DNA from: Lachnospiraceae bacterium
GTDB taxonomy: Bacteria; Bacillota; Clostridia; Lachnospirales; Lachnospiraceae
Assembly: GCA_017962105.1 (NCBI GenBank)
Contig: JAGCVY010000092.1
Location: 1-33,807, forward strand
Reading direction: 5' to 3'
Length of the DNA stretch: 33,807 nt
Both the position numbers and the translations under genes were made by a program. The first letter of the stretch is position 1. Every line of letters starts with the position of its first letter. Below the pieces are notes generated by a model that worked only from the letters and a program-made list of their open reading frames with translations, was not told where the DNA came from and searched no databases. Shown here in pieces: positions 3,042 through 33,280 of the stretch.

Positions 3042-3066
3042 CGGAAAATGAAAACCGCATTTTCCG
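3042..3066. repeat. inverted pair of the CGGAAAATG nonamer (9-bp stem)
   Basis: CGGAAAATG (3042-3050), 7-base loop AAAACCG, CATTTTCCG (3058-3066). The perfect hairpin lies between the divergent merR and HEAT-repeat genes, just upstream of the latter's -35 box. It is one of two hairpins in the window built from the dispersed nonamer. Confidence 0.8.
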
Positions 3067-3067
3067 A

Positions 3068-3097
3068 GTGACAAAACAAAAACCGGTATGGTATAAT
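3068..3097 (+). promoter_or_regulatory. promoter of the HEAT-repeat gene
   Basis: GTGACA (3068-3073), 18-bp spacer, TATAAT (3092-3097) with an extended TGG before the -10. The promoter at 14656-14685 has nearly the same sequence and spacing. Confidence 0.7.
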
Positions 3098-3132
3098 TCC
3101 CGTTGCGTAATTTGGGAAAACGGGGGGATTAT

Positions 3133-3738
3133 ATGAGTGAATCAGAACTATACAAAGATCTCGGAGCGTTGACGAAGGAGAAGACAAAGTGGAAAGAGAA
3201 TATTCCCTTTGTAACGTCGCTTCTTGATCACGGATCGTCGAAGATCCGGGCGAAGGCGCTGTGGCTTTTAGGCGAGATGGGGCTTTTGTACCCGAATACA
3301 GTGAAGGACTCGGTGTCTTCAATTGCGGCTTTCCTTGACAGTGAAGACGCGCTTCTCCGGGAGCGCGCAATCAATGCCCTCGGTAGGATCGGCAGAGGCG
3401 ACTACGCATTGATCGAGCCGTATTGGGAAGGCTTGTTCCGCTTTTCGGAGGATCCGGAAGCAAATGTCAGATTGAACTTCATCTGGGCTTCGGAAAATGT
3501 GGCGACCAACACGCCGGACATCTATGAAACCCATATGGAAGTCTTTGCCAAGTTGTTGGACGATGCGGATGACAAAGTACGCATGGAGTCACCGGAGATT
3601 TTCCGGGTGCTCGGGAAGCGCAGACCGGAGTTTGTACTTCCGTATATAGAGAAACTTCGGAAGATGGCGGAGACCGACGAAAACCGCGTCGTGCGGATCC
3701 ACAGCTCAGGTGCGATCAAGGCGGCGGGGATAAAGTGA
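3133..3738 (+). CDS. HEAT-repeat domain protein
   Basis: 201 aa, soluble, no signal peptide. It consists of helical repeats visible as LLDHGSSKIRAKALWLLGEMG, FLDSEDALLRERAINALGRIG, FSEDPEANVRLNFIWASE and LLDDADDKVRMESPEIFRVLG. Each has the D-x-x-x-x-R-x-x-A pattern of HEAT/PBS-lyase-like repeats. Such proteins are usually protein-protein scaffolds. The catalytic features of DNA glycosylases (AlkD) or phycobilin lyases were not recognised. The ATG at 3133 follows GGGGGGATT. It has its own promoter and a strong terminator, so it is monocistronic. Its function cannot be told from the sequence. Confidence 0.85.
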   Translation: MSESELYKDLGALTKEKTKWKENIPFVTSLLDHGSSKIRAKALWLLGEMGLLYPNTVKDSVSSIAAFLDSEDALLRERAINALGRIGRGDYALIEPYWEGLFRFSEDPEANVRLNFIWASENVATNTPDIYETHMEVFAKLLDDADDKVRMESPEIFRVLGKRRPEFVLPYIEKLRKMAETDENRVVRIHSSGAIKAAGIK

Positions 3739-3773
3739 GTATTCAGTTGAATCAAGAGTAAATATATGGCGGA

Positions 3774-3815
3774 AAAAACAGGAGCCGGCACGTTTGTGTC
3801 GGCTCTGCTTTTTTG
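3774..3815. terminator. bidirectional terminator between the HEAT gene and dtxR-like gene
   Basis: Ten-bp stem GAGCCGGCAC/GTGTCGGCTC (3782-3791, 3796-3805, one G-T pair). A TGCTTTTTT tract follows on the + strand and a TGTTTTTT tract on the - strand. It serves both convergent genes. Confidence 0.88.
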
Positions 3816-3831
3816 CTTGGATCAGTATCTA

Positions 3832-4206
3832 TTACTTCTTCGAGTATTTCTCCATATGCCGCTTGATGGCATCGAAGGTTTCATCACTGATATAGTGCTC
3901 AACCCGGCAGGCATCCTCGGATGCAATCTTCTCGTCAACGCCCAGGCGGATAAGCAACTGGGAGAGGACCGTGTGCCGCTCGTAGATCCGCTTGGAAAGA
4001 ATCTTGCCTGCTTCGGTTAGCTTGAGATAACCGCTGTCATCAATCTTGACCAACCCCTCGCTTTTTAATAAGCCGATCGCCCGGCTCACGGAGGGCTTGG
4101 AGAAGCCCATCTCTTCCGCGACGTCAATGCTGCGCACCGCGGAGGACTTCAACGACAGAACATAGATGGTTTCCAGATACATTTCCCCTGATTCCTGCAA
4201 CGCCAT
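3832..4206 (-). CDS. DtxR/IdeR-type iron-dependent transcriptional repressor
   Basis: 124 aa: winged helix-turn-helix (about 5-65) plus dimerization/metal domain, without the SH3-like third domain of DtxR. The DtxR primary metal ligands are all present as Met9, Cys100, Glu103 and His104 (motif ACRVEH), with His78 for the ancillary site. Cys at this position points to Fe(II) rather than Mn(II); MntR has Glu there. The start at 4206 has AGGGGG upstream on the - strand. It is divergent from the feo operon, whose promoter carries two dyads of DtxR-box type. It most likely represses feo when iron is replete. Confidence 0.93.
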   Translation of the reverse strand: MALQESGEMYLETIYVLSLKSSAVRSIDVAEEMGFSKPSVSRAIGLLKSEGLVKIDDSGYLKLTEAGKILSKRIYERHTVLSQLLIRLGVDEKIASEDACRVEHYISDETFDAIKRHMEKYSKK

Positions 4207-4238
4207 GGCAAATACCCCCTTCTCAACCTGTTAGGAAG

Positions 4239-4267: not shown

Positions 4268-4311
4268 CTTTATGTTTTGCCTTTTTGGTAAAAATGAAGT
4301 CAAAAACAGCC

Positions 4312-4918: not shown

Positions 4919-7402
4919 ATGAGTACGCGAATTGCTCTTGCGGGAAACCCGAACAGCGGTAAGACAACACTTTTTAACGCTCTCACGGGTTCCAACCAAT
5001 TTGTCGGAAACTGGCCCGGCGTTACGGTGGAGAAGAAGGAAGGAAAGCTGAAGAAGCACGATGATGTCGTCATCACCGACCTTCCCGGTATTTATTCCCT
5101 CTCTCCGTACACGCTGGAAGAGGTAGTTGCGAGAAACTACCTGATCGGAGAGAGACCGGATGCGATCCTGAACATCGTAGACGGTACGAACCTTGAGAGA
5201 AACCTGTATCTGACGACACAGCTGACCGAACTGGGAATTCCGGTGGTCATCGCCATCAACATGATGGATGTCGTGAAGAAAAACGGCGACAAGATCAACA
5301 AGGAGGAATTGTCCCGTCAGCTCGGCTGCAAGGTTGTGGACATTTCGGCTCTGAAGGGCGATGGCGTCATGGAGGCCGCGGAGACAGCTGTTGAGGCCGC
5401 TGCGAAGACGAAGACCGTACCGCTGCACACGTTCTCCGGTCCCGTTGAACACGCGATCGCACACATCGAGGAGGCTGTCGTACATGACATGCCTGAGGAA
5501 CAGCAGAGATGGTACGCCATCAAGGTGTTCGAGAGAGATGACAAGGTTTTAGAGCAGCTGAACATCCCGAAGGATACGCTGAATCACATTGAGAAGGACA
5601 TTCAGGCTGCGGAGAAAGAACTGGATGACGATGCCGAGAGTATCATCACCAACGAGAGATATATCTACATTGCAGATGTTATTAAGTCCTGCTATAAGAA
5701 GAAAAATGCCGGCGCACAGACAAAGTCGGATAAAATCGACCGGATTGTCACGAACCGCTGGCTCGGACTTCCGATCTTCGCTCTTGTGATGTTCCTTGTG
5801 TACTGGATTGCCATGGTCGGTGTCGGTGCTCCGGCGACCGATTGGGCGAACGACGGACTGTTCGGTGACGGCTGGCATCTTCTCGGAATCGGTTCCGGTG
5901 ACACGGAAGACGCCGAGGAAGAGTACGGCGATACCGATGCGATCATCGAAGGTCTTCTTGCGAAAGCCGAGGAGGACGGGATCGACATTGAGGCTGTAGA
6001 GACTGCGCTGGATTCCGAGGCGGATGATTACGATTCGGCGGCAGCTGTGACGGCTCTCCGCGCGATCGTTGCGAATTATGAGGGAAAGAGTGCAGAATTC
6101 CCGTATACGCTGGTGGACGAGGAGACCCTGGAGGAGACCGATGAAACGGCTTCCCTTGCGGATGTAAACGATGCCATCGCGATGTACGAAAAATACGAGG
6201 GCGGCGTGGATCCGGCCAACTATGGCGTGTGGGTTCCGGGTATCCCGTCCCTTGTAGAGTCACTGCTTGATAAAATCGGCTGTGCGGACTGGCTGAAGGG
6301 TTTGATCCTTGACGGTATCATCGCCGGCGTCGGCGCGGTACTCGGATTTGTTCCGCAGATGCTTGTCCTGTTCCTGATGCTCGCGTTCCTTGAGGCGTGC
6401 GGCTACATGGCACGTATCGCCTTCGTTCTGGACCGCATTTTCCGCAAATTCGGTCTGTCCGGCAAATCCTTCATCCCGATGCTGATCGGCGTTGGCTGCG
6501 GTGTGCCCGGTATCATGGCATCGCGTACGATCGAGAATGAGCGCGACCGCCGTATGACAATCATGACAACGACCTTCATTCCCTGCAGCGCCAAGATTCC
6601 GTTCATCGGCATGGTGGCGGGCGCTATCTTCGGCGGCAGTGCTTGGATTTCGACTTCGGCATATTTTATCGGTATGGCGGCGATCATCGTCTCCGGTATT
6701 ATCTTAAAGAAGACGAAGATGTTCGCCGGCAACCCGGCACCGTTCGTTATGGAGCTCCCGGCATATCATTGGCCGACCATCGGCAATGTGCTTCACTCCA
6801 TGTGGGAGCGCGGCTGGTCCTTCATCAAGAAGGCCGGAACTATCATTTTGCTCTCCACGATCGCAGTGTGGTTTACTTCCCGCTTCGGATGGCTTGACGG
6901 CAAATTCGGAATGCTCGAGGAAGACGAGATCGGCAGCTCGATCCTTGCAAAGATCGGAAACGGTATTGCCTGGATGTTCGCACCTCTCGGATGGGGCAAC
7001 TGGCAGGCAGCTGTCGCCAGCGTGACCGGTCTTGTTGCGAAGGAGAATATCGTCGGTACTATGGGAATCCTCTACGGAGACATCGCATCCATCGGCGAAG
7101 CGTTCACCAAGATTGCGGGCTTCTCGTTCCTTGTGTTCAACCTTCTGTGCGCACCGTGCTTCGCAGCTATCGGCGCAATCCGCAGAGAGATGAACAATCC
7201 CAAGTGGACATGGTTTGCCATCCTGTATGAGTGCGGTTTCGCGTATGTGATCGCCCTGATGATCTACCAGTTCGGCAAGATCTTCGCCGGCGGCGTGAAT
7301 GTGATCGGCCTGATTTTCGCCATCGCGTTCCTTGCGGGAATCGTTTACATGCTGTTCTTCAAGAAGTATCAGGAAGCTAAGAAACTGACCAAGATCAGCT
7401 AA
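4919..7402 (+). CDS. feoB: ferrous iron transport protein B (FeoB GTPase/permease)
   Basis: 827 aa. N-terminal cytoplasmic G domain with G1 GNPNSGKT (9-16), G3 DLPG (54-57), G4 NMMD (114-117) and G5 SALKG (143-147). A helical GDI-like region follows, then the membrane part from about residue 281 with Gate domains (GYMARIAFVLDR, GVGCGVPGIMASRTIENERDRR, PCSAKIPF). It imports Fe(II) across the cytoplasmic membrane. Between the first membrane helix (282-305) and the next Gate helix lies an acidic segment of roughly 120 residues (about 322-440), predicted outside the cell. It is rich in Asp and Glu, has no Cys, and is absent from E. coli FeoB. RBS GAAAGGCGAGG. Repressed, by inference, through the two dyads at 4318-4364. 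Confidence 0.97.
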   Translation: MSTRIALAGNPNSGKTTLFNALTGSNQFVGNWPGVTVEKKEGKLKKHDDVVITDLPGIYSLSPYTLEEVVARNYLIGERPDAILNIVDGTNLERNLYLTTQLTELGIPVVIAINMMDVVKKNGDKINKEELSRQLGCKVVDISALKGDGVMEAAETAVEAAAKTKTVPLHTFSGPVEHAIAHIEEAVVHDMPEEQQRWYAIKVFERDDKVLEQLNIPKDTLNHIEKDIQAAEKELDDDAESIITNERYIYIADVIKSCYKKKNAGAQTKSDKIDRIVTNRWLGLPIFALVMFLVYWIAMVGVGAPATDWANDGLFGDGWHLLGIGSGDTEDAEEEYGDTDAIIEGLLAKAEEDGIDIEAVETALDSEADDYDSAAAVTALRAIVANYEGKSAEFPYTLVDEETLEETDETASLADVNDAIAMYEKYEGGVDPANYGVWVPGIPSLVESLLDKIGCADWLKGLILDGIIAGVGAVLGFVPQMLVLFLMLAFLEACGYMARIAFVLDRIFRKFGLSGKSFIPMLIGVGCGVPGIMASRTIENERDRRMTIMTTTFIPCSAKIPFIGMVAGAIFGGSAWISTSAYFIGMAAIIVSGIILKKTKMFAGNPAPFVMELPAYHWPTIGNVLHSMWERGWSFIKKAGTIILLSTIAVWFTSRFGWLDGKFGMLEEDEIGSSILAKIGNGIAWMFAPLGWGNWQAAVASVTGLVAKENIVGTMGILYGDIASIGEAFTKIAGFSFLVFNLLCAPCFAAIGAIRREMNNPKWTWFAILYECGFAYVIALMIYQFGKIFAGGVNVIGLIFAIAFLAGIVYMLFFKKYQEAKKLTKIS

Positions 7403-9066: not shown

Positions 9067-11052
9067 ATGAACAGGAAACAACGGAAAATGTTGATCCGCA
9101 TTCTGGTCGCGGCCGCACTTATGGTCGTGATCCGTGTTTTGTATGCCTTCCTCGGCGAGGGCGAAGATGCGGCGATCAAGGAGCCGTTCTGGTTTCTGAT
9201 GTACATGGTTCCTTACCTGACGGTCGGTTATGACATTTTACGAAAAGCGGTTAAAGGCATTCGAAATCGTCAGGTGTTCGATGAGAATTTCCTGATGGCA
9301 GTCGCGACCGTCGGCGTTATCGCGTTGGCGCTGATCAAGAAAAACGGCGATTATACGGACGGAATCGCGGTCATGTTGTTCTACCAGGTCGGCGAGCTGT
9401 TCCAAAGCTACGCGGTGGGAAAGAGCCGCAGAAGCATCAGTGCCCTAATGGACATCCGACCCGACTATGCGAATCTTGAAAAGGACGGGGAAATCGAGCA
9501 GGTGGATCCCGACGAGGTGGAAACGGGCAGCATCATTGTTGTAAAACCGGGCGAGAAGGTTCCGATTGACGGCGTTATCATCGACGGAAAGACAACGCTT
9601 AATACAAGCGCCCTGACGGGTGAGAGCGTCCCGAGAGAGGCGGATGTGAACGATGAGATCATCAGCGGCTGCATCAACCTGACGGGCGTTATCCGGGTTC
9701 GCACGACGAAGGCCTTCGGGGAATCCACGGTGTCGAAGATCCTCGAGCTGGTGGAGAGTTCGTCCTCGCGGAAATCGCGCTCGGAGAACTTCATTTCCCG
9801 CTTTGCCAAATACTACACCCCGATCGTATGCTTCAGCGCGCTTGCCCTTGCACTGTTGCCGCCGGTGGTGCTATTGATCCTCGGTAAGGCTCCCCGGTGG
9901 GGCATGTGGGTGTACCGCGCTCTGACCTTCCTCGTTATCAGCTGCCCGTGTGCACTGGTCATCAGCATTCCGCTTACATTTTTCGCCGGAATCGGCGGAG
10001 CAAGCCGTGCCGGAGTTTTGGTTAAGGGTTCGAATTACCTGGAGCAGCTGGCGAAAACCGGAGTTGTCGCGATGGATAAGACCGGCACGATGACGAAGGG
10101 CGTGTTCGAGGTTTACGGCATTCATCACAGCACCATGGACGGCGCGAAGCTGCTGGAGATCGCGGCGCACGCGGAGTGCTTTTCCACGCACCCGATTGCT
10201 CTGAGCATCCGGCGGGCTTACGTTACGGGGCAGATGTGGGGAATCGATGAGGCGACCGGGGAGACGGTTCTTCTCAGTTCCAATTCGGAAAATGTTCACA
10301 CGATTGCCAAAGAGCGCGTCGGAAGCGTCGAGGAGATCGGCGGAAACGGAATTGCCGCTTTGGTGGACGGACACGAGGTTGTGATCGGAAATGCGCGCCT
10401 GATGGAGCGGTACGGCGTTGAGTATATCCCATGCCATCATGTCGGAACGATCGTGCATGTTGCGATTGACGGCGCATATGCGGGCCACATCCTGATTTCC
10501 GATGTCGTGAAACCAACGGCCGCACAGGCAATCCGTGAGATGCATGAAGCGGGAATCCGAAAGACAGTCGTCCTCACCGGCGATGCGAAAGCGGCTGCCG
10601 AGGCGGTTGCGAAGGAGCTCGGCGTCGATGAGGTTCGCTCGGAACTGCTGCCTGCCGACAAGGTGACGGCGGTGGAGGAGCTGCTGGCGCGGAAGAGCGC
10701 ACGGGAAGTGCTCGCATTTGTCGGAGACGGAATCAACGATGCGCCGGTCCTTTCGCGGGCGGACATCGGTATCGCCATGGGAGCTCTCGGCTCCGATGCG
10801 GCGATTGAGGCAGCGGATGTCGTCCTGATGGACGATGATCCCGTGAAGATTGCAAAGGCCATCCGCATCGCCAGAAAATGCATGCGGATCGTGAAGGAGA
10901 ATATCATTTTCGCACTCGGGATTAAGGTATTGTGTCTCATACTCGGTGCGTTTGGAATCGCCAATATGTTGATGGCAATCTTCGCCGATGTGGGAGTCAT
11001 GGTTCTTGCGGTTCTGAATGCGATTCGCGCACTTTACGTAGATTCTGTGTGA
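9067..11052 (+). CDS. P1B-type Zn(II)/Cd(II)/Pb(II)-exporting ATPase
   Basis: 661 aa. Phosphatase motif TGES (184-187), metal-site CPC (293-295), phosphorylated Asp337 in DKTGTMT, HP dipeptide (His375-Pro376) and GDGINDAP (553-560). Lys620 in the seventh core helix and Asp641 in the last helix (ADVG) correspond to the ZntA residues that coordinate zinc. This places it in the Zn/Cd/Pb group rather than the copper group. It has a hydrophobic N-terminus and no HMA domain; that domain is the separate gene just upstream. It exports toxic metal from the cytoplasm. It is in an operon with the HMA protein and, 42 bases on, an ArsR-type sensor. RBS GGAGGAAA. Confidence 0.95.
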   Translation: MNRKQRKMLIRILVAAALMVVIRVLYAFLGEGEDAAIKEPFWFLMYMVPYLTVGYDILRKAVKGIRNRQVFDENFLMAVATVGVIALALIKKNGDYTDGIAVMLFYQVGELFQSYAVGKSRRSISALMDIRPDYANLEKDGEIEQVDPDEVETGSIIVVKPGEKVPIDGVIIDGKTTLNTSALTGESVPREADVNDEIISGCINLTGVIRVRTTKAFGESTVSKILELVESSSSRKSRSENFISRFAKYYTPIVCFSALALALLPPVVLLILGKAPRWGMWVYRALTFLVISCPCALVISIPLTFFAGIGGASRAGVLVKGSNYLEQLAKTGVVAMDKTGTMTKGVFEVYGIHHSTMDGAKLLEIAAHAECFSTHPIALSIRRAYVTGQMWGIDEATGETVLLSSNSENVHTIAKERVGSVEEIGGNGIAALVDGHEVVIGNARLMERYGVEYIPCHHVGTIVHVAIDGAYAGHILISDVVKPTAAQAIREMHEAGIRKTVVLTGDAKAAAEAVAKELGVDEVRSELLPADKVTAVEELLARKSAREVLAFVGDGINDAPVLSRADIGIAMGALGSDAAIEAADVVLMDDDPVKIAKAIRIARKCMRIVKENIIFALGIKVLCLILGAFGIANMLMAIFADVGVMVLAVLNAIRALYVDSV

Positions 11053-14721: not shown

Positions 14722-15525
14722 TTGAAGAAGATGAATACATCGGAAAATGTTTTGTTTCTGTTGGAATCCAACAAAGAGAGCTACATTTCCGGAGAGGAAA
14801 TGGCGAAGCAGTGCGGCGTTTCGAGAAATGCCGTCTGGAAAGCCATAAGGGATCTTCGAGGGAAGGGCTATGACATAGAGGCAATCAGTAACAAGGGCTA
14901 CCGGCTGGCCGGCAATACCGACATTATTTCCGCCGAGGGAATAAAAGCCGGACTGACGGAGGAACTCAGAAAAGCCGACATCTTTGTGTATGACAGTCTC
15001 GGGTCCACAAGCGATAAGGCAAAAGAACTGGCCGTGAAGGGCGCGCCTCACGGAACTGCCGTCGTTGCCGTGACACAGACCGGCGGGAGAGGCAGGAAGG
15101 ATCATTCCTTCTTTTCCCCTGAAGGCGGCCTTTATATGAGCGTTGTGCTGAGGCCTGACATGTTGACTCTTACCGACAGCAAAGCGGTCACGGCTCATGT
15201 GGGAAATGCGGTGATCAATGCGATCCGGGAGCTCACCGGCGTTGAGTCCTATATTGAAGGTATCAACGATCTCTATGTTGAGGGAAAGAAAATCTGCGGG
15301 ATTCTTCTTGAGTCGGGCAGCGAATTTGACAGTAACACCCTGCAGTGGATCGTGGCGGGGATCGGGATCAACTTTGATTCGGATTTAAACAGTTTTCCAG
15401 AGGATGTAAAAGACAGAGCCACCGGGTTGTTTGCTCCCGGGAAAGCCACGATTGCCAAAAACACACTCATTGCCGGCATCCTTGAGAGAGTGCTGATTGT
15501 CAACCAAACAAACGAAATAGGTTGA
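14722..15525 (+). CDS. birA: BirA-like biotin operon repressor/biotin-protein ligase, lacking the C-terminal domain
   Basis: 267 aa, starting with TTG 14722, six bases after AAGGGG (the ATG at 14731 is too distant). N-terminal winged helix (about 8-62; CGVSRNAVWKAIRDLRGKGY) and BirA catalytic core: GSTSDKAKEL, GRGRKDHSFFSPEGG (122-136), INDLYVEGKKICGILLE and VAGIGINF. Typical BirA proteins have 320-330 residues and end in an SH3-like domain; this one stops just after the core. Two core motifs deviate: GRGR(x)GR is GRGRKDH, and the WPND motif is GIND, though the active-site Lys after it remains. It may be mainly a biotin-sensing repressor of bioY. Its stop codon lies inside the operator at 15496-15529. 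Confidence 0.85.
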   Translation: MKKMNTSENVLFLLESNKESYISGEEMAKQCGVSRNAVWKAIRDLRGKGYDIEAISNKGYRLAGNTDIISAEGIKAGLTEELRKADIFVYDSLGSTSDKAKELAVKGAPHGTAVVAVTQTGGRGRKDHSFFSPEGGLYMSVVLRPDMLTLTDSKAVTAHVGNAVINAIRELTGVESYIEGINDLYVEGKKICGILLESGSEFDSNTLQWIVAGIGINFDSDLNSFPEDVKDRATGLFAPGKATIAKNTLIAGILERVLIVNQTNEIG

Positions 15526-16321: not shown

Positions 16322-17107
16322 ATGTTTACCAAGGATGTAATTCTCGGATTATTAATTCCGTTCGCCGGGACGGCGGGCGGCGCTGCGTGCGTTTTCTTTA
16401 TGCGCGGGCAGCTCAACGATAAGGTACAGCGGGCCCTCACGGGCTTTGCAGCCGGTGTGATGGTTGCGGCTTCCATCTGGAGCCTGCTGATGCCCGCGAT
16501 GAACCAGTCGGAGTCCATGGGCAAATGGGCGTTTGTTCCGGCGGTCGCCGGCTTCTGGCTGGGCGTGCTTTTACTGTTGTTCCTCGACTCTGTGATCCCG
16601 CACCTTCACATGGACAGCGATAAGCCGGAGGGCGTGAAGAGCCATCTGCGGAAGACCACCATGATGGTCCTTGCGGTGACGCTTCACAATATCCCCGAGG
16701 GAATGGCAGTTGGCGTGGTTTACGCGGGCCTTCTCGCGGAAAATGCATCCATCACCGCAGGAGCGGCGCTGGCGCTCTCGGTGGGTATCGCGATCCAGAA
16801 TTTTCCGGAGGGTGCGATCATCTCGATGCCGCTGCACGCCAACGGAAGAAGCCGGCTCGGCGCATTCCGTGACGGCGCGTTGTCCGGCGCCGTGGAGCCG
16901 GTGTTCGGACTTCTGACGATCCTTGCGGCAGGACTTCTGGTTCCGGCGATGCCGTATCTTCTGAGCTTTGCGGCGGGCGCCATGATGTATGTGGTCGTGG
17001 AGGAGCTGATCCCCGAGGTGTCGGCAGGGGAGCACACCAACATCGGTGTGTTGATGTTTTCCTTCGGATTCACTCTGATGATGGCACTGGATGTGGCGCT
17101 TGGATAA
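16322..17107 (+). CDS. ZIP-family divalent metal transporter
   Basis: 261 aa, about eight membrane helices. The binuclear metal site motifs of ZIP proteins are present: HNIPEG (122-127) in helix 4 and QNFPEG (159-164) in helix 5. A short His-containing loop (PHLHMDSD, 93-100) precedes them. Family members import Zn(II), Fe(II) or Mn(II), and the bacterial GufA/ZupT branch fits best. ATG 16322 follows GGAAAGGA; the in-frame ATG at 16307 lacks an RBS. Together with Feo and the zinc-efflux genes it makes the third metal transporter in 13 kb. No Zur or DtxR box was seen upstream. Confidence 0.92.
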   Translation: MFTKDVILGLLIPFAGTAGGAACVFFMRGQLNDKVQRALTGFAAGVMVAASIWSLLMPAMNQSESMGKWAFVPAVAGFWLGVLLLLFLDSVIPHLHMDSDKPEGVKSHLRKTTMMVLAVTLHNIPEGMAVGVVYAGLLAENASITAGAALALSVGIAIQNFPEGAIISMPLHANGRSRLGAFRDGALSGAVEPVFGLLTILAAGLLVPAMPYLLSFAAGAMMYVVVEELIPEVSAGEHTNIGVLMFSFGFTLMMALDVALG

Positions 17108-17138: not shown

Positions 17139-17181
17139 CGTGTGAAAGAGGAAATAGAACATTTTCCGGCCGGGAAACGAA

Positions 17182-19161: not shown

Positions 19162-19545
19162 ATGATTTCATTTGACACATTTCACCCGGTTGACGGCGTG
19201 CCGATTTATCAACAGATTCTACTGTTTATAAAGCGCGGTGCGGTCGCGGGAACCATCCGGGACGGCGACGAACTTCCATCGAGAAGAATGCTTTCGGCAC
19301 TTTTGGGGATTAACCCGAACACCGTGCAGAAGGCGTTCCACCTGTTGGAGGACGAGAACCTGATTACATCACAAATGGGGGCGGGGAGTAACATGACATT
19401 ATCGGAAGACAAGATCAGGGAATTGCGGGAAGAACTGCTTGCGGACGACATCCGCAGCATCACGGCTTCCCTGAAACAAATGGGAATTGACAAGGCGGAA
19501 GCGCTGCGATTGATCGAGCGGAACTGGGAGGATACAGAGGCATGA
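19162..19545 (+). CDS. GntR-family repressor, YtrA type
   Basis: 127 aa. GntR winged helix (about 10-75: GVPIYQQILLFIKRGAVAGTIRDGDELPSRRMLSALLGINPNTVQKA) followed by only a short helical tail for dimerization, as in the YtrA subfamily, which typically precedes ABC transporter genes. First gene of the operon; stop overlaps the next start (ATGA at 19542-19545). By analogy with B. subtilis YtrA it represses its own operon through the dyads at 19052-19092. B. subtilis ytr is induced by cell-wall-active antibiotics, so an envelope signal is plausible here, but this is inference. Confidence 0.92.
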   Translation: MISFDTFHPVDGVPIYQQILLFIKRGAVAGTIRDGDELPSRRMLSALLGINPNTVQKAFHLLEDENLITSQMGAGSNMTLSEDKIRELREELLADDIRSITASLKQMGIDKAEALRLIERNWEDTEA

Positions 19546-20897
19546 AAAAGCATTTTTCCGTATATGCATTTGCACTTCGCAGGAAGCTGCCGAAGTTTCT
19601 GATCCGCTTCCTGCTGCTGGCCGTGATCGGACTCGGATGTTACCGGATGTTCGGCGTGAAGAGCGGACAGTACGTATCCTATAAAGCGTATGATGAACAG
19701 ACGGGGGAGTGGATACCGATAGAGGACTCGGAGACCGGCGAGTATACGGATGTTGAGACTTCAGAGAGCGCATACGACTCATTTTCCGGCGGGTACAGCA
19801 AACTGATCCTCACCTGCATCATTGTCGCAGGGTATGTTATCGCTATGGTTTCCTGTCTGTCGCTTCCGTCGAAACGGAGCAGGACGGAGAATCTGCGCGG
19901 ACGTCTCCGCATCTCCGAGGGCAGCGTGTTCCGGTGGGAGCTGGCGGCGAACCTTACGGTGTTTCTGCTGCTGTGGATGTTTTTAATCCTCATTCTCTTC
20001 GGCGCAGGGCAGATTTATCAGAGCGTGAACGGAGGTCTTCAGGGAGCACCGTACATCGTCATATCACTGTACCGGTATTCATTGTTTCACGCCATCGTTC
20101 CGTTCTATGATTTGGGACAATGGCTCCTGACGGGACTCTTCTTCGTCATCAGCGCTTCCCTGTGTCTGGGAATGCTGTTCCGGGACAGAACTGTTCGGAT
20201 CGTATGGATTGTTTTCTTTGCGATCATCGTTTTGATCAACTCCTTTGAGCACATCCGGGATTTTCTGGAAGGAGAAGTACCGCTCAAACTCATCGGCGCA
20301 GTGATTGTCTTCGGCCTTACGCTGCTGATCTGCTGGATGCTGACCGACCGCGAAAAGGGTACGGAGGGGGTCAGGGAAACGGATCCCGCGAAACAGACAA
20401 AGAACTCCGCGGCCAGTCCCGTGCATCCCTTCTGCCGGTATTGTTTTCTTCCGCCGGTCCGGGACATCCGCAGGGAAATTATCCTGTATGCGGTTGCTCT
20501 TTTGGCGATGGTGAATTACAGCCTGCTGTTTTTTATTGACTATTGGAGTAACCCCAAAACAATCATCGACCTGTCATATCGGGATGACATTAAGAGCCTC
20601 AACGAGATGCTGGCTTCCCGGTTTTTCGGGCTGACGCTTTTAGTCATCTTCTGTGTGTGGAAAATAGTTACCTACTATATGCAGTTCTACCGTGCGAGCC
20701 GGTCCGTCTGCGTCATGAGACGCCTGAAAAGCCGCACGGAGATGCATGTCCGCTGTCTGGCTCTGCCGGTGTTATGCATCCTGATCGCAATCATCCTGTG
20801 CGCGTTGCTGTTGACGGGGTACATCGCACTTTACCGCCATAGCGTTCCATATGAATTGAACCAGGAAACGCTTGAATTTTGGAGGATGCTGATATGA
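19542..20897 (+). CDS. ABC transporter permease, full length (module 1)
   Basis: 451 aa, a membrane protein with about eight helices: one at about 20-33, an extracytoplasmic acidic loop (about 38-80), then helices near 85-105, 130-155, 185-215, 220-240, 250-270, and two in the C-terminal part (about 320-340, 365-385, 408-430). No known family motif. The C-terminal 150 residues match the separate protein at 24529-25080 (shared pattern Y-RASRSVCVMRRLKSRTEMHVRCLALPV versus Y-TRSIYVMKRLRSRWELHRRCLAFPV). The N-terminal part is similar in layout to the protein at 23823-24554. It partners the ATPase at 20894. Confidence 0.8.
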   Translation: MKKHFSVYAFALRRKLPKFLIRFLLLAVIGLGCYRMFGVKSGQYVSYKAYDEQTGEWIPIEDSETGEYTDVETSESAYDSFSGGYSKLILTCIIVAGYVIAMVSCLSLPSKRSRTENLRGRLRISEGSVFRWELAANLTVFLLLWMFLILILFGAGQIYQSVNGGLQGAPYIVISLYRYSLFHAIVPFYDLGQWLLTGLFFVISASLCLGMLFRDRTVRIVWIVFFAIIVLINSFEHIRDFLEGEVPLKLIGAVIVFGLTLLICWMLTDREKGTEGVRETDPAKQTKNSAASPVHPFCRYCFLPPVRDIRREIILYAVALLAMVNYSLLFFIDYWSNPKTIIDLSYRDDIKSLNEMLASRFFGLTLLVIFCVWKIVTYYMQFYRASRSVCVMRRLKSRTEMHVRCLALPVLCILIAIILCALLLTGYIALYRHSVPYELNQETLEFWRMLI

Positions 20898-23015: not shown

Positions 23016-23042
23016 AAAGCTACAGAAAAGGAAGAAAACAAA

Positions 23043-23777
23043 ATGTTGGAAATACAAAAAGTCAGCAAACGATACGGAGCCGTACAGGCGCTTTCGGACG
23101 TCACTTTTTCCGTCGGACCCAGCGAGGTTGTGGGGCTGTTCGGCGAGAACGGATCCGGAAAGACAACGCTTATGAAAAGCATTCTCGGACTGCAGTCCTT
23201 CAAAGGGATAATCCTTTTGGACGGGCAGCCGGTCACGAGGAGTAACGCGAACCGTCTGTCCTTCGCAAGCACGGAGCACAGCTGTTTCCCGTTCCTGACG
23301 GCAGCGGATCACGAGGCGTATTACGCGAAACATTTTCCGAAGTTTCGAAGGGAACGGTACGTGATGTTGACGAAGTTCTTTGAAATCCCTTTAAATCGTC
23401 CGATCGGAAATCTGTCCTACGGCATTCAGAGCCAGATGGAAGTGATCCTGGCCCTCTGCCAGGGCGCGGAGTACATCCTGATGGACGAGCCCTTTGTAAA
23501 CTATGACCTGCTCAACCGGGAGGACTTTTACAAGATAATCCTGGGCCTTCTGGAGCCGGATGAGACGATCCTCCTCTCGACGCATCTGATCGAAGAGGTT
23601 GAGGGCTTCATCAACCGGGCGCTTTTGATCCACGAGGGGAAGCTGGTGGATGACATCTCCACAGAAACCATTGAAGCAAGCGGGACATCGCTGATCGATT
23701 ATGTCAAGAAAACCTACGGGTATCAGTCCGACCGGGTTGGGCAGGCACTTGCCGAGATTACCGGCGATATTGGGTAA
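23043..23777 (+). CDS. ABC transporter ATPase 2, degenerate signature motif
   Basis: 244 aa. Walker A GENGSGKT, Walker B YILMDEP and STHL are intact, but the signature reads LSYGIQSQME where its paralogues read LSAGQQNQVE and LSTGQQNQVE. Gln after Gly is replaced by Ile. CEH in the region after the Q-loop is TEH. In heterodimeric ABC proteins one partner often has such a degenerate signature. This ATPase has no full permease of its own directly upstream. It could pair with ATPase 1 or 3 as a non-equivalent half. RBS is modest (AAAAGGAAG). Confidence 0.9.
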   Translation: MLEIQKVSKRYGAVQALSDVTFSVGPSEVVGLFGENGSGKTTLMKSILGLQSFKGIILLDGQPVTRSNANRLSFASTEHSCFPFLTAADHEAYYAKHFPKFRRERYVMLTKFFEIPLNRPIGNLSYGIQSQMEVILALCQGAEYILMDEPFVNYDLLNREDFYKIILGLLEPDETILLSTHLIEEVEGFINRALLIHEGKLVDDISTETIEASGTSLIDYVKKTYGYQSDRVGQALAEITGDIG

Positions 23778-23822
23778 CACCGGTTCGGAAAATGGGTAGA
23801 GAATGACGGAGGTAATTGCTTT

Positions 23823-24554: not shown

Positions 24555-25080
24555 TCATTTTCCGGGGGAATGCTCGGGAAGGGCAGGAAGGGAGCAGCGC
24601 ATTGTGATCGCGCTGGCACTGGCTTTCGGCCTTCTGTGGATGGCAGCGACAAGCACGGCTTTCCTCAGCCGGTACCGGAACCAAAGTCCCGATGAAAACA
24701 TCTACCATGAAGTCGATACCTTTTGGAACGGACGGTGGACAACGACGCGGGAGCCGGTGAAGATTGCCTCCCTCAACTCCCTGCTGGAGGGGGTGTTCCG
24801 GCTGCTGCCCCTGCAGGTTCTGCTGGCTGCGGTTCTGGCCGGGATGAATTATCTGAGTTTTTATTATCCGACCAGGAGCATTTACGTGATGAAGCGGCTG
24901 CGAAGCCGATGGGAGCTGCACCGAAGGTGCCTTGCGTTTCCCGTATTCTGGATCCTTGTCTGCGTGGCAGTCTGCGTGATCCTTGGAAGCATATACTGTC
25001 ATATGTATTTTCACAATACGGTTCCGGGCCGGATCCCGGATGGCGTATCTTTGAATATCTGGAGGACACTCGCATGGTAG
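24529..25080 (+). CDS. ABC transporter permease, C-terminal half (module 2, split)
   Basis: 183 aa with about three hydrophobic helices (28-48, 88-108, 138-160). Matches the C-terminal part of the 451-aa permease, down to the end: NIWRTLAW versus EFWRMLI. It has its own ATG (24529) with AAGGCAAGGG nearby and lies in the +1 frame relative to the preceding gene. Its stop overlaps the next ATPase start (ATGGTAG), the same coupling as permease and ATPase 1 (TGGAGGA upstream of both ATPase starts). The two halves may assemble, or be joined by frameshifting. Confidence 0.8.
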   Translation: MTMKRWIADHFPGECSGRAGREQRIVIALALAFGLLWMAATSTAFLSRYRNQSPDENIYHEVDTFWNGRWTTTREPVKIASLNSLLEGVFRLLPLQVLLAAVLAGMNYLSFYYPTRSIYVMKRLRSRWELHRRCLAFPVFWILVCVAVCVILGSIYCHMYFHNTVPGRIPDGVSLNIWRTLAW

Positions 25081-25808
25081 AACTGAAAAATGTCAGAAAA
25101 AAGTATAACGGTCAGGTTGACGCGCTTACCGGGATTGACCTGTCCTTCGGGCAGGGGGAGATCATCGGTCTGTTCGGCGAGAACGGCGCCGGCAAGACAA
25201 CCCTGATGAAGTGTATCCTCGGCCTTTTGGGTTACAAGGGAGAAATCCTTTTGGACGGAGAGCCGATCACGCGGAAAAATATCGCCCGTCTGTCCTTCGG
25301 AACCTGCGAGCACAGCTTCTTCCCGAAGATGACGCTGGCGGAGCACGCCGAGTTTTATGCGAAGCATTTTCCGAAGTTTCGGCAGACCCGGTACCAGGGA
25401 CTTGCGGAGTTTTTCGAGCTTCCTCTGAACCGCCCGGTGCGAACCCTGTCCACCGGCCAGCAGAACCAGGTGGAAGTGATCCTTGCACTCTGCCAGGGAG
25501 CCGATTACATCTTTTTGGATGAACCCTTTGTGGGCCATGACATCTTTAACCGGGAAGACTTCTACAAGCTTCTCCTCGGTGTATTGGAACCCACGGAGAC
25601 CGTGTTTTTGTCCACCCATCTGATCGAGGAGGTGGAGGGACTGATCGACCGTGCGGTGATGATCCGCAAGGGAACCATTATCGGAGATGTCAAAGTGGAG
25701 GAGATTGAGGAGCAGGGCAGTACGCTTGTCGAGTATGTCAAGCAGCTCTACGGCTACAAGTCCGACCGCGTCAGTCAGTCGCTGGCAAAGTTCGGCAGCA
25801 CGGAGTAG
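25074..25808 (+). CDS. ABC transporter ATPase 3 (module 2)
   Basis: 244 aa; start ATG 25074 with GGAGG nine bases upstream (an upstream extension of the frame to 24723 overlaps the permease gene and has no RBS). Walker A GENGAGKT, signature LSTGQQNQVE, Walker B YIFLDEP and STHL are intact, so it should be catalytically competent. It retains the CEHSFFPKMTLAEHAEFYAKHFPKFR segment. Closest in the window to ATPase 1 in motif integrity and to ATPase 2 in the AKHFPKFR region. Confidence 0.93.
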   Translation: MVELKNVRKKYNGQVDALTGIDLSFGQGEIIGLFGENGAGKTTLMKCILGLLGYKGEILLDGEPITRKNIARLSFGTCEHSFFPKMTLAEHAEFYAKHFPKFRQTRYQGLAEFFELPLNRPVRTLSTGQQNQVEVILALCQGADYIFLDEPFVGHDIFNREDFYKLLLGVLEPTETVFLSTHLIEEVEGLIDRAVMIRKGTIIGDVKVEEIEEQGSTLVEYVKQLYGYKSDRVSQSLAKFGSTE

Positions 25809-25868
25809 TGCGTCAAAATCAAAACGATGACGGCGGAACGCGATGCGGCCGCCGCGGGGAGGTTTGTG

Positions 25869-28936: not shown

Positions 28937-31168
28937 TTATACGGCTTCGTGGAACGTTCTGGAGATGACCTCCTTCTTCTGCTCGAGAGTCAGCTTGTTG
29001 AAGGTTACGGCGTATCCCGAGACGCGGATGGTGAGCGTCGGATATTTCTCCGGATGGTTCATTGCGTCAATCAGCGTTTCGCGGTTGAGCACATTGACGT
29101 TCAGGTGGTGGGCCTTCTGCGCAAAATACCCGTCGAGAATGTGGATGAGATTGCTGCAGCGCTCATTTTCCGTATGACCGAGTGCCTGCGGGATGATGGA
29201 GAAGGTGTTGCTGATGCCGTCCTTGCAGGTCTGGTACGAAAGCTTGGCAACTGAGTTGAGGGATGCGAGAGCCCCGCTCTTGTCACGGCCGTGCATCGGA
29301 TTGGCGCCCGGTGCAAAGGGCTCGCCGGCACGGCGTCCGTCGGGCGTGTTGCCGGTCTTTTTGCCGTACATGACATTCGATGTGATGGTGAGGATCGAGA
29401 GCGTATGCTCGGCGTTACGATAGGTCGGCGTCTTCTTAAGAGCAGCTAAGAAGAGCTCGGTCTGCTCCTTGGCAAGAAGGTCGACGCGGTCGTCATCGTT
29501 GCCGTAGCACGGGAACTCGCCGGTGGTCTCGAAATCCTTGATGAGTCCTGTCTCGGGATCGCGGATGGGCTTGACCTTTGCGTACTTGATCGCGGAGAGC
29601 GAGTCTGCGAGAACCGAAAGACCTGCAACGCCGAAGGCCATGTAGCGGTGCACGTTGGTGTCGTGCAGGGCCATCTGGGTCTTCTCGTAGGCGTATTTGT
29701 CGTGCATGTAATGGATCATGTTCATGGCGGTGACGTAGGTCTTCGCAAGCCAGTCGCGGTAGAAGGCCATGCGCTCGCACACCTTGTCGTAGTCGAGGTA
29801 CTCGTCCTCATAGACGGGCATCTCCGGGCCGACCTGCATGTTATAGCGCTCGTCGCGGCCGCCGTTAAGGCTCATCAGAAGAAGCTTTGCGAGGTTTGCG
29901 CGGTCTCCGAAGAACTGCATGTCCTTGCCGAGGCGCATCGCGGAGACGCAGCAGGCGATGCCGTAGTCGTCGCCGTAGATCGGCCGCATCAGGTCGTCGT
30001 TCTCATATTGGATGGCGTCGGTATCGCAGGATACCTTCGCTGCAAAATTCTTGAAGTTCTGCGGCAGATCCTTCGACCACAGCACTGTGAGGTTCGGCTC
30101 TGCGGACGGGCCCAAGGTGTAGAGCGTATTCAGGATGCGGAAGGAGTTCTTTGTGACGAGGGTTCTCCCGTCCTCACCCATGCCGCCTACGGATTCGGTG
30201 ATCCACATCGGGTCGCCGGCGAAGAGTTCGTTGTACTCGGGCGTGCGGAGATGGCGGGCCATGCGGAGTTTCATAACGAAATCATCGAGAAGTTCCTGCA
30301 GCTCGGACTCGGTGTAAACACCGTTTTTCAGGTCGCGCTCGAAGTAGATGTCGAGGAACGTGGAGGTGCGGCCTAAGCTCATGGCAGCGCCGTTCTGCTC
30401 CTTGATGGCTCCGAGGTAGCCGAAGTACAGCCACTGGATCGCCTCCCGGGAGTTCGTCGCGGGCTTGCTGATATCAATGCCGTAGAGAAGCGCCATGTCC
30501 TTGAGCTTCCCGAGGAAGTTGATCTGCTGATAGAGCTCCTCGAGACGGCGGATGGTCTCGGCGTCCATGGGCTGCGAAGCGGCGAGCTCCGCCTTGTCCT
30601 TCGTCTTCTCCTCGATCAGGCGGTCGACGCCGTAGAGGGCCACGCGGCGGTAGTCGCCGATGATACGGCCTCTGCCGTAGGCGTCCGGAAGACCGGTGAT
30701 GATGCCCACGTGGCGGGCCTTGCGGATCTCGTCGCTGTAGACGCGGAAGACGCCGTCATTGTGGGTGGTGCGGTATAAAAACTCCTCTTCAACCTTCTCG
30801 GAGAGCTCGTAGCCGTAAGCCTGGCAGGCTTTTCTGGTCATGTTGATACCGCCGAAGGGGTTGACGCCGCGGCGCAGGGGCCGGTCGGTCTGCAGACCCA
30901 CGATCAGCTCCTTGTCCTTGTCCAGGTAGCCGGGCTTATAGTTGAGAAGTGAGGTTACATGCTGCGTGTCGATGTCGAGGACACCGCCGAACTGCTGCTC
31001 GAGGTCGAAGAGGTGGGAGAGCTTTCCCATCAGCTCCTTTGTGCGGTCGGTTGCCTCCGCGAGAAAACTGCCGTCCCCGTCGTAGGGTGTGTAGTTGTTC
31101 TGAATGAAATCCCGGACGTTGATCTCGTTTTTCCAGGTTTCTCCGACAAATCCTTCCCAAGCTTCCAT
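28937..31168 (-). CDS. pflB: formate C-acetyltransferase (pyruvate formate-lyase)
   Basis: 743 aa. It cleaves pyruvate with CoA to acetyl-CoA and formate. Catalytic Cys406-Cys407 in GIACCVSAM and the glycyl radical Gly718 in RVSGYAV are present; starts [22 protein letters not shown]. The start at 31168 follows GGAGGAAGG; the frame continues upstream to 31435, but that part is the riboswitch leader. Length is normal for true PFL rather than a diol dehydratase or choline lyase. Expression appears to be controlled by a ZTP riboswitch in the 5' leader. Confidence 0.97.
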
Positions 31169-31252
31169 GGTACCTTCCTCCTTTTTGGCAATCCCGCCTT
31201 CGGGATAACATTTTCCGCACTTTGCCGCGGTGATGTGTCGCTGTATAAGAAC

Positions 31253-31370: not shown

Positions 31371-31391
31371 AAATGTTCTTCATTTGTCCAA

Positions 31392-31420
31392 AGCATACCA
31401 CAAGATATAGGGGCAGTCAA
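31392..31420 (-). promoter_or_regulatory. pflB promoter
   Basis: On the - strand: TTGACT (31415-31420), 17-bp spacer, TATGCT (31392-31397). It lies about 20 bases before the riboswitch, so transcription starts right at the aptamer. The gene-free stretch 31169-31565 holds this promoter, the riboswitch, its terminator, two CGGAAAATG copies and the next promoter. Confidence 0.82.
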
Positions 31421-31493
31421 TATGGCAAATTGCACGAAAACGGAACGATTTCTTCCGCGTCAGAGGACATTATTAATTTTTGCGGAAAATGTA

Positions 31494-31522
31494 TTGCGTT
31501 CCGGAGACAGTGGTGGTATACT
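31494..31522 (+). promoter_or_regulatory. promoter of the zinc-ribbon gene
   Basis: TTGCGT (31494-31499), 17-bp spacer, TATACT (31517-31522) with TGG before it, 43 bases before the start. A CGGAAAATG copy (31483-31491) abuts the -35 box. Confidence 0.6.
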
Positions 31523-31565
31523 GACTCAAATGGTAAATATGCTTTACCAACAAGGGGGTTAGTCA

Positions 31566-32879
31566 ATGGGAACTGTTATGCAGAAAAACTATCGCTGTCC
31601 CGGCTGCGGGGTAACCTTGGAGTTCGATCCGGCGACACAGAAACTGCATTGTGCATACTGCGAAGCATCGTATTCCGTGGCGGAGATCGAAAAAGCGCTA
31701 CAGGAGCTTGCCGCTAAGCTGGAACAGATCGGAATAAACACGGCAGAACCGGAGAAACCGGCGGAGGAGCAGAAGGCAGAGAAGTCTGCTGAGGATATGT
31801 ACCGGGATATGCGGGAGACGATGCAGATGACCATTCTGCACTGCAATGCCTGTGGTGCGGAGCTGGCGATCGACGGGACGGAGGCATCCACATTTTGCGC
31901 GTTCTGCGGTCAGGCGGCCGTGGTCACGGACCGGCTGGAGGGCATGCTGAAGCCGGACTATATCATTCCGTTCAAGGTGACCAAAGAGGAAGCGGAGAAA
32001 ACCATCCGCAAGAGATTGTCCAAGGGATTTTTCGTCCCGAAGAAGGTCAAGAATTTCGAGACCGACTGCCTGCGGGGAATCTATATCCCGTACTGGCTTT
32101 TCGACGTGTACTACGGAGACCGCCAGCTCTGGCGCTATGAGACCGACAAGAAAACCTTTTGGGACGGCAGGGAAAAGATGACCGCCGTCCGCGGCGGGGA
32201 CTGCACGTTCCGCAGTATGACGCTGGACGCTTCGAAAGCGGTGCCGGACGAGTCTTCCAAGAGGCTGGAGCCGTATGATCTGGAGGGAATGGTTCCCTTC
32301 GATGCGGCGTATCTGTCCGGGTTTTACTCGAACAAGCGGGATTACCCGTCGTATCAGATGGAACAGACCGCCATCCGGCGGGCGGCGGAGCTTTTCGATG
32401 AATATGTTGAGAATAATGTAAAGTCAACCCTGAAGCGCAAGAAACCGGAGAAGATCAGCTGCAATCCCATCGGAAAGGCCATGAACCCGAGATATGTGCT
32501 TCTTCCCGCGTGGTTCTTGACCTTTACCTATGACGGGGTACCGCACACAATGCTGATCAACGGACAGACCGGGAAGATGATCGGCGCGGTTCCCTATGTG
32601 AAAGCGAAGGCCTTCACCCTGCTGGCAGCTCTGGCTGCGGTGTTCTGCACCGCCCTCGGTGCGGTGGGAGGGATACAGGTTCCCTGGCTGTTCAAAAGCG
32701 TGAGCGAGATAGATTCGGATGTGATCAAAGCGCTGGGAAACCTCTGTATCGTGGGAGGTCTTTCGGTGACAGCCCTGTGGCACCGCACGGTGAAAAACTA
32801 TAAGAGACTTTCAAAAAGCTGCAAGCTGACGGAGTCGACGGTCACCCGGAGTTTTGCAACGGAAAGGCAGGATCGGTAG
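31566..32879 (+). CDS. zinc-ribbon protein with C-terminal membrane helices
   Basis: 437 aa. Two N-terminal zinc ribbons: CPGCG (11-15) with CAYC (29-32), and CNACG with CAFC about 18 residues later, separated by a Glu/Lys-rich linker with coiled-coil character. A beta-rich domain follows (KPDYIIPFKVTKEEAEKTI, IYIPYWLFDVYYGD, LLPAWFLTFTYDG), then two hydrophobic helices near 350-372 and 385-405. Proteins of this layout are often annotated TFIIB-type zinc-ribbon-containing in Clostridia; function unknown. RBS AAGGGGG. Precedes a small membrane protein by one base. Confidence 0.85.
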   Translation: MGTVMQKNYRCPGCGVTLEFDPATQKLHCAYCEASYSVAEIEKALQELAAKLEQIGINTAEPEKPAEEQKAEKSAEDMYRDMRETMQMTILHCNACGAELAIDGTEASTFCAFCGQAAVVTDRLEGMLKPDYIIPFKVTKEEAEKTIRKRLSKGFFVPKKVKNFETDCLRGIYIPYWLFDVYYGDRQLWRYETDKKTFWDGREKMTAVRGGDCTFRSMTLDASKAVPDESSKRLEPYDLEGMVPFDAAYLSGFYSNKRDYPSYQMEQTAIRRAAELFDEYVENNVKSTLKRKKPEKISCNPIGKAMNPRYVLLPAWFLTFTYDGVPHTMLINGQTGKMIGAVPYVKAKAFTLLAALAAVFCTALGAVGGIQVPWLFKSVSEIDSDVIKALGNLCIVGGLSVTALWHRTVKNYKRLSKSCKLTESTVTRSFATERQDR

Positions 32880-32880
32880 T

Positions 32881-33204
32881 ATGACGAACACCTTATCTAC
32901 GATAATTGCAGTTGTCTTCGGCGGCCTCGGGATTCTGATCGGCGCGGCGCTGGCGATCCTGATCACGGTCTGGCTCGTGCGAAAATCCAACGACGTCGGG
33001 GATTCCAGCGGAACCCTGTATGATTTCCGGGCGAACATCAACCTGTTCGATGATACGAACGATGTGTACGACTTCTCCGAAAAGCGCTCGGAAGAAATTA
33101 TCCGCAACCATCTGAAGGCGGCTATGGAGGAGGCGGCACTGCGGGAGGAAAAAAGAAAGAAAAACCCGGCTGCGGGGATCCCGAAGACACTCACACCGCG
33201 GTAA
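32881..33204 (+). CDS. small membrane protein of unknown function
   Basis: 107 aa; ATG 32881 begins one base after the preceding stop, with AGGCAGGA upstream. One strong N-terminal helix (about 5-30: LSTIIAVVFGGLGILIGAALAILITVWLV) is followed by a hydrophilic, charged tail with likely helices (EEIIRNHLKAAMEEAALREEKRKK). No family recognised. Coupling to the zinc-ribbon membrane protein suggests that they act together. Confidence 0.75.
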   Translation: MTNTLSTIIAVVFGGLGILIGAALAILITVWLVRKSNDVGDSSGTLYDFRANINLFDDTNDVYDFSEKRSEEIIRNHLKAAMEEAALREEKRKKNPAAGIPKTLTPR

Positions 33205-33243
33205 AAGGCAGGCTTTCAACGGCATTTCGGGACAAGTGTAAGA

Positions 33244-33280
33244 GGATGCATTTTCGGAAAATGCATCCTTTACTTTTTTC
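33244..33280 (+). terminator. terminator built around the CGGAAAATG motif
   Basis: Twelve-bp arms GGATGCATTTTC and GAAAATGCATCC around a single G (33244-33268), followed by TTTACTTTTTTC. Its core CATTTTC-GGAAAATG contains one exact nonamer (33255-33263) facing an almost complete inverted copy. Confidence 0.85.

Follow-up and report, generated by a model that had tools for sequence, protein, structure and literature searches.

What process, if any, is served by a nine-base word that recurs throughout a bacterial genome? The 33,807-nucleotide contig of a Lachnospiraceae bacterium analysed here (JAGCVY010000092.1, hereafter the window; contig C52 of genome G000, which comprises 2,587,466 bases in 105 contigs and is 96% complete) contains scattered exact copies of the nonamer CGGAAAATG, for which the initial annotation had proposed a role as a dispersed signal for DNA uptake, repair or nucleoid binding, to be judged by its genome-wide count and rank, strand bias, intergenic enrichment and conservation, its presence in relatives and the presence of competence genes. 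All 19 copies reported there were recovered, 10 on the forward and 9 on the reverse strand (Table 1). The word occurred on average 0.57 times in 100 dinucleotide shuffles of the window (maximum 3), hence the excess is real, with the original chance expectation of 0.26 about two-fold too low. Genome-wide, G000 carries 1,060 copies (537 forward and 523 reverse, one per 2.4 kb) versus 8 copies (5 forward and 3 reverse) of a control consisting of the same letters read backwards, which rules out a count near expectation outside the window. When ranked against an order-3 Markov model, trained on DNA that itself contains the word, CGGAAAATG was the most over-represented 9-mer in 350 kb of G000 (140 seen, 9.7 expected) and again in 629 kb (245 seen, 18.2 expected). 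Known uptake sequences are words of 9–12 bases present in hundreds to thousands of copies, and CGGAAAATG falls within this range.

The preferred context of the word in 350 kb of G000 was TTCGGAAAATG followed by T or C. One-base variants at positions 2 and 5–8 were rare (1–11 copies each versus 140), and those at positions 1, 3, 4 and 9 were commoner, with up to 45 copies. At 110 intergenic sites with full flanks, taken from G000 and the related species G002, positions 2 and 4–8 were almost invariant and positions 1, 3 and 9 loose, and no longer flanking signal was found around these sites beyond a T-rich stretch just upstream. Because of this strict core and the lack of a longer flanking signal, CGGAAAATG looks like a recognition site rather than a repeat family with common flanks. 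Neither the word nor its surroundings are symmetric, and the word is not a palindrome.

Placement was assessed using gene calls from a simple codon-usage caller written for this analysis, with no published tool. In 629 kb of G000, with 246 sites, the word was three-fold denser between genes than within them (0.94 versus 0.32 per kb), and the 179 genic copies were divided almost equally between sense (91) and antisense (88) orientation. The same pattern was seen for 107 sites in 393 kb of G002, with 0.80 per kb in intergenic and 0.18 per kb in genic DNA, and 31 sense and 31 antisense copies. Intergenic DNA makes up 10.5% of the window, in line with the tenth estimated initially, and the enrichment noted there stands with a changed count, as the new gene calls place 8 of the 19 copies between genes instead of seven (24556 being the addition). 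Synonymous-codon shuffling within G000 genes (60 shuffles) yielded a mean of 14 and a maximum of 23 copies versus the 179 seen, and we thus agree with the earlier statement that codon bias alone does not explain the word.

Strand polarity was judged by the GC skew of 15-kb blocks in these draft genomes, where the G-rich strand is presumably the leading strand. In G000, where 40 of 44 blocks had a clear skew, 117 copies lay on the G-rich strand and 102 on its complement; in G002, with 24 of 24 such blocks, the counts were 52 and 44, respectively. The pooled split of 169 to 146 (95% interval 0.48–0.59) shows no polarity, so that the Chi- or KOPS-like behaviour named initially as contrary to an uptake signal is not seen, and CGGAAAATG shares with uptake sequences a strand symmetry that follows neither chromosome nor gene direction. 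Spacing in G000 was nearly random (coefficient of variation 0.95). A test for depletion in mobile elements led nowhere because 629 kb contained no informative word-free deserts, with 4 gaps of >9 kb versus 7.3 expected. A low-GC (0.43), gene-poor segment without the word, G000:C82:1-11732, is possibly acquired DNA. We conclude that the iteration of CGGAAAATG is real, genome-wide, and neither a product of codon bias nor polar.

To examine conservation, genes of G000 were compared with their orthologues from G002, from 40 kb of G021 and from the public relatives L022, L023 and L024. Ten coding sites had identical peptides (5 versus G002, 4 versus G021 and 1 versus L023), and all nine bases were kept in 9 of these, where other sites matched for degeneracy predict 2.6 (P=3.8e-5). 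When the same peptides were written in other codons, the nine bases were kept in 0 of 8 cases, and where the peptide differed 1 of 14 sites retained the word. Conversely, many of the relatives' copies within aligned coding windows were missing from G000 (7 of 13 for G002, 3 of 6 for G021). Since same-peptide sites are mostly intact and many copies of the relatives are absent from G000, copies of CGGAAAATG appear to turn over and yet to be held where present, as judged from small numbers.

The word is widespread in the genus, and its form follows phylogeny. In a sample of 22 genomes of the genus, including G000 and with densities computed from rounded genome sizes, 18 had >100 copies per Mb, and the poorest were G019 (63 copies), G013 (73) and G004 (96). 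As read from the tables of counts, 3 of 297 sampled genomes from other genera of the family exceeded 100 per Mb (G094, G229 and G110), and 0 of 244 sampled genomes from elsewhere in the class exceeded 60 per Mb. The closest FeoB genes were those of four public metagenome-assembled genomes (L021, L022, L023 and L024), which are labelled Lachnospiraceae or Lachnoclostridium and two of which are from water-buffalo rumen; these contained 4, 11, 9 and 13 copies, respectively, in 15–22 kb. The bearer of the window is therefore probably a member of that group of Lachnospiraceae living in gut or rumen. A one-letter variant, CGGCAAATG, leads together with its shifts in 140 kb of G012, a member of the same genus, and has genome counts of 445 in G001, 431 in G015, 354 in G011, 122 in G000 and 41 each in G013 and G019. 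On trees of ComEC (20 genomes) and PilB (17 genomes, excluding G001, G009, G014, G016 and G017 and using one of the two G003 copies), the shares of the two forms sort by clade. Densities of CGGAAAATG and CGGCAAATG per Mb are 272–410 and 44–62 in the clade of G000, G002, G008, G010, G021 and G006, 181–372 and 63–172 in that of G018, G015, G014 and G009, and 96–162 and 70–202 in that of G001, G012, G007, G020, G005 and G011, with a fourth clade (G003, G004, G013 and G019) being poor in both (28–115 and 16–75). Dialects of the neisserial DNA uptake sequence (DUS) likewise follow phylogeny and can be mixed in one genome, according to the accessible part of PMC3630211.

Related words lead in three genomes of other genera, namely CGGGCAATG in G094 (14 copies in 93 kb, next to 10 of CGGCAAATG and just 5 of CGGAAAATG), AGGAAAATG in G110 (15 in 62 kb) and CGGCAAATG in G277 (7 in 60 kb, and 134 genome-wide versus 5 for the control). 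Their common end AATG suggests a single family of words across genera. Other iterated sequences were encountered in the same data. G094 (L212-L216) has a second iterated word, GCGAACAAAA, with 12 copies in 93 kb versus 0.3 expected, beside CGGGCAATG. G313 (L227-L231) has a different word family, CCGAGTGAGG / AGTGAGGAGC, with 9–14 copies in 100 kb, which are probably clustered repeats since they are absent from a listing restricted to scattered copies. In G002 (L173-L176), AGTGGCAGA and its shifts were genic and sense in 11 of 11 copies and resemble a repeated protein motif, and G013 (L199-L204) contains a CRISPR-like array of approximately 23 repeats containing GTGGATTGAAA.

The genus encodes the machinery for natural transformation. 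In G000 a single run of genes (C92:27033-41123) encodes PilB, PilT, PilC, two PilA-like pilins, a prepilin peptidase and PilM, together with a PilN/O-like protein named by its place, pilins resembling PilV, GspH/FimT and PilW, and two larger proteins that begin like pilins and match nothing in Pfam. The pilins of the operon lie at C92:31208-41123, and six of its proteins carry a prepilin signal. Profiles built from two pilin alignments matched type IV pilins of a general kind in a search of solved structures. PilT, PilM and the prepilin peptidase passed curated cut-offs, PilB and PilC are strong family matches below the NCBI equivalog cut-offs, and a second PilT-like ATPase is located on C6. 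ComEC of G000 exceeds the NCBI cut-off (200.7 versus 190.05 bits), and ComEA, examined in this genome, passes the helix-hairpin-helix model (70.6 versus 53.1 bits) and, when given as a shortened protein, scores below the full comE model (111.2 versus 152.35 bits). Across the genus, ComEC and DprA were each found in 20 of 22 genomes. PilB was matched at full size in 17 of the 22, and G014 has a piece of it at the end of a contig; G001, G009, G016 and G017, which are 79–85% complete, yielded only other ATPases of the PilB superfamily or fragments. At genus level, type IV pili, ComEA, ComEC and DprA are thus all encoded, as the proposal of an uptake signal had led one to look for.

Uptake is the best fit among the processes put forward initially, given that the genus possesses the complete set of competence genes and dialects that follow its clades. 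The most likely reading, to which we assign a probability of about 0.55, is that CGGAAAATG is a DNA-uptake sequence with dialects whose evolution was separate from that of both known cases, and the data suggest that bacteria of this genus recognise the DNA of their kin by such a watermark. The type IV pili would bind double-stranded DNA carrying CGGAAAATG, probably via a minor pilin located at their tip, and would be retracted by PilT; ComEA would hold the DNA, and ComEC would pass a single strand into the cell for recombination by DprA and RecA. Kin DNA carrying the word would be imported preferentially, and recombination would copy the word to more places and keep it there (molecular drive), which would lead to its accumulation on both strands wherever coding allows. 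What the sequences show is the abundance of the word, its strand symmetry, its intergenic excess, the conservation of its codons, its clade-specific dialects and the machinery genes of the genus; from these we infer the recognition, the biased uptake and the receptor. The broader proposal, for which we would put the odds slightly below even, is that a self-recognition watermark for natural transformation has arisen for a third time, in Clostridia of rumen and gut, as an AAAAT-centred word with at least two clade-shifting dialects (CGGAAAATG and CGGCAAATG) and related words in other genera (CGGGCAATG in G094, AGGAAAATG in G110 and CGGCAAATG in G277), read by a Clostridial type IV pilin.

Several observations weigh against uptake as the function. 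If the pilus reads the word, pili should be commoner in word-bearing genomes, which was not seen in other genera. Among 41 other-genus genomes, PilT was above the curated cut-off in 4 of the 7 with an excess of either word (G094, G277, G124 and G110, the exceptions being G229, G254 and G064) and in 20 of the 34 others (Fisher P=1.0), and there is therefore no association of word and pilus outside the genus. The hardest case is G229 (genus g209), in which CGGAAAATG occurs 340 times and CGGCAAATG 177 times and no PilT lies above the cut-off, and which may reflect codon bias, a lost pilus or a missed one. The excess in G064, G254 and G124 is weak and might stem from codon usage. Conversely, G013 and G019 possess ComEC, DprA, PilB and pilins and yet have few copies, and pili are common in the family whereas CGGAAAATG is not. 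Such mismatches fit the gain and loss of a young system, and also a signal unrelated to pili. A survey of iterated words in 60 kb per genome (40 kb for G091 and G093) gave top scores of 5.1–7.7 in seven genera with a strong PilM match and 5.7–6.5 in six PilM-negative ones, with CGGCAAATG as the leading word in G277 and none of the words leading elsewhere. This contrast is poor because the PilM-negative G106 has PilT; four of the six PilM-negative genomes also carry weak PilM matches, and G083, intended as a seventh and represented by one contig of 507 bases, was left out.

Further points on the same side come from the genus itself. DprA was not found in G000, perhaps owing to an assembly gap, and ComEC is interrupted by stop codons in G011 (C57:53707-54488) and split in G004 (C63), which makes a loss of competence in these lineages possible. 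No pilin passed the ComP_DUS model (PF16732), with PilA1 scoring best at 21.7 bits against a cut-off of 27.3. In five species the last residues of the FimT/GspH-like pilin are TGRVSY, TGKVSY, TGKVTY or TGKIST; this pilin has the G-[R/K] part and lacks the full G-[R/K]-X-[R/K] motif by which FimT binds DNA (accessible part of PMC12040237). The same part of that source states that in Streptococcus pneumoniae PilW matters more. The conservation test, as given above, is based on 10 sites.

Perfect inverted pairs, which in the initial annotation supported the likeness to known uptake sequences, are not a habit of CGGAAAATG, and this too counts against uptake, although pairs serving as terminators are a common and not a necessary trait of uptake sequences. 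Of the two hairpin-forming pairs described there, the one at 3042/3058 does fold as a hairpin, and the other (33255) proved to be a single copy in a near-palindrome. In 629 kb of G000 there were 5 neighbouring pairs within 40 bp, 4 of them inverted, where random spacing predicts 3.9. Terminators sit in convergent intergenic regions, and these had the lowest density of the word (0.48 per kb, 4 copies in 8.3 kb, versus 1.03 and 1.19 per kb). Imperfect inverted partners (at least 7 of 9 bases, within 40 bp) were found at 95 of 353 sites versus 64 at random positions that were not matched for intergenic location, a modest excess. Apart from this excess, terminator hairpins as a rule are unsupported. 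What stands of the original interpretation is a dispersed, non-polar and lineage-specific signal for which uptake fits best; its hairpin argument has weak support at most, and a link with pili across genera did not hold.

The main rival, to which we give distinctly less credence than to uptake, takes CGGAAAATG as the selected binding site of a protein that organises or repairs the chromosome, such as a nucleoid-associated protein, a condensin loader or a recombination factor. The spread over two strands, the intergenic excess and the conservation fit such a site equally well, and the independence of the words from PilT outside the genus speaks for it. Its non-polar nature is however unlike known organising sites, which to our knowledge are polar or regional. 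Moreover, two one-letter forms mixed within one genome and shifting by clade are a habit of uptake sequences (PMC3630211, from the part accessible). A role of CGGAAAATG as an orphan methyltransferase target or a similar mark is, in our view, unlikely. Long asymmetric targets are unusual for methyltransferases, and the word is non-palindromic with a long strict core; HIP1 of cyanobacteria nevertheless documents that high iteration is possible for a word linked to methyltransferases (accessible part of PMC4390886). Less probable still is a polar signal of the Chi or KOPS type, read by AddAB or FtsK. A protein that is AddB-like by eye is encoded and the copy number resembles that of Chi, but the strand split of 169 to 146 shows none of the polarity of such signals, with no orientation along replication. 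An origin as a by-product of codon or amino-acid usage may account for weak excess elsewhere: most of the genomes sampled in the family have the word slightly more often than its reverse (as read from the table, with no median taken), as codon usage could produce. Such an origin is contradicted for the genus, where codon or codon-pair bias is ruled out by synonymous shuffles explaining 14 of 179 genic copies, by sense and antisense symmetry and by the three-fold higher intergenic density, leaving it a negligible chance.

The copies in the window are listed in Table 1. Those at 23331 and 25365 occupy the same place in paralogous ABC ATPase-like genes, as the initial annotation had cautioned.

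Table 1. Exact copies of CGGAAAATG in the window, with their setting by the new gene calls.
Feature	Positions	Strand	Setting	Remark
CGGAAAATG copy	3042..3050	+	intergenic	first arm of inverted pair
CGGAAAATG copy	3058..3066	-	intergenic	second arm of inverted pair with 3042
CGGAAAATG copy	3491..3499	+	gene 3169-3738 (+), sense	
CGGAAAATG copy	6436..6444	-	gene 4919-7402 (FeoB-like by eye), antisense	kept in relative L023
CGGAAAATG copy	9082..9090	+	gene 9088-11052 (P-type ATPase by eye)	overlaps called start
CGGAAAATG copy	10286..10294	+	gene 9088-11052, sense	
CGGAAAATG copy	14741..14749	+	gene 14731-15525 (biotin ligase-like by eye), sense	
CGGAAAATG copy	16737..16745	+	gene 16322-17107, sense	
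CGGAAAATG copy	17160..17168	-	intergenic	
CGGAAAATG copy	17639..17647	+	gene 17227-17988, sense	
CGGAAAATG copy	19780..19788	-	gene 19542-20897, antisense	
CGGAAAATG copy	23331..23339	-	ABC ATPase-like gene 23043-23777, antisense	place shared with 25365 in paralogue
CGGAAAATG copy	23786..23794	+	intergenic	
CGGAAAATG copy	24556..24564	-	intergenic by new gene calls	directly beyond stop codon
CGGAAAATG copy	25365..25373	-	ABC ATPase-like gene 25074-25808, antisense	
CGGAAAATG copy	29164..29172	-	gene 28937-31168 (pyruvate formate-lyase-like by eye), sense	
CGGAAAATG copy	31209..31217	-	intergenic	
CGGAAAATG copy	31483..31491	+	intergenic	
CGGAAAATG copy	33255..33263	+	intergenic	within near-palindrome folding as terminator-like hairpin

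The window also harbours three diverged ABC-transporter-like modules in one run (19162-28099, named by eye), with their ATPases at 20894-21637, 23043-23777 and 25074-25808; a GntR-like regulator and membrane and large exported partners, likewise assigned by eye, lie in the same run.

If CGGAAAATG is indeed an uptake sequence, watermarks of this kind would evolve repeatedly and need no outer membrane, and rumen Lachnospiraceae would transform in nature. Donor DNA carrying the word would then offer a handle toward genetic tractability of these bacteria, and the origin of uptake bias would become testable, because genomes rich in the word, mixed ones and nearly empty ones occur within a single genus. 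Should the word instead serve a protein that organises the chromosome, its length, strictness and lack of polarity would be unusual for such a site.

Among known systems, Chi sites are also short words of similar copy number; unlike CGGAAAATG, they are oriented with replication. The DUS of Neisseriaceae is closer, being a short word of approximately a thousand or more copies in mixed, clade-following dialects, in bacteria with type IV pili and ComEC, and the uptake signal sequence (USS) of Pasteurellaceae shares a nine-base core with hundreds to thousands of copies. The cores of these families are CTG for the neisserial DUS and GCGG for the Pasteurellaceae USS (accessible part of PMC12616744), and CGGAAAATG, which contains neither, belongs to neither sequence family. 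It further differs from the DUS in being an unrelated word in Clostridia with perfect inverted pairs near chance and no pilin assigned as ComP, and from the USS in having no flanking block other than the T-rich bases immediately upstream. Within the Firmicutes, Veillonella, a member of the Negativicutes, provides a further comparison. Veillonella parvula is competent, has type IV pilin genes and prefers genomic over PCR DNA; in the accessible part of that report, a search for uptake sequences yielded no word of at least 10 bp with 100 occurrences, without deciding on words of 9 bp (PMC5397411). HIP1 of cyanobacteria resembles CGGAAAATG in being a highly iterated and lineage-specific word, and differs in being the palindrome GCGATCGC, linked to methyltransferases (PMC4390886, from the part accessible), whereas CGGAAAATG is asymmetric. 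Among the matches listed from a library of 5.39 million open papers, which lacks most subscription papers and all bioRxiv preprints, none described such a word in Clostridia or any other Firmicute. As a kind, a dispersed uptake watermark is known; as a case, CGGAAAATG would be new in phylum, in word and in cell envelope.

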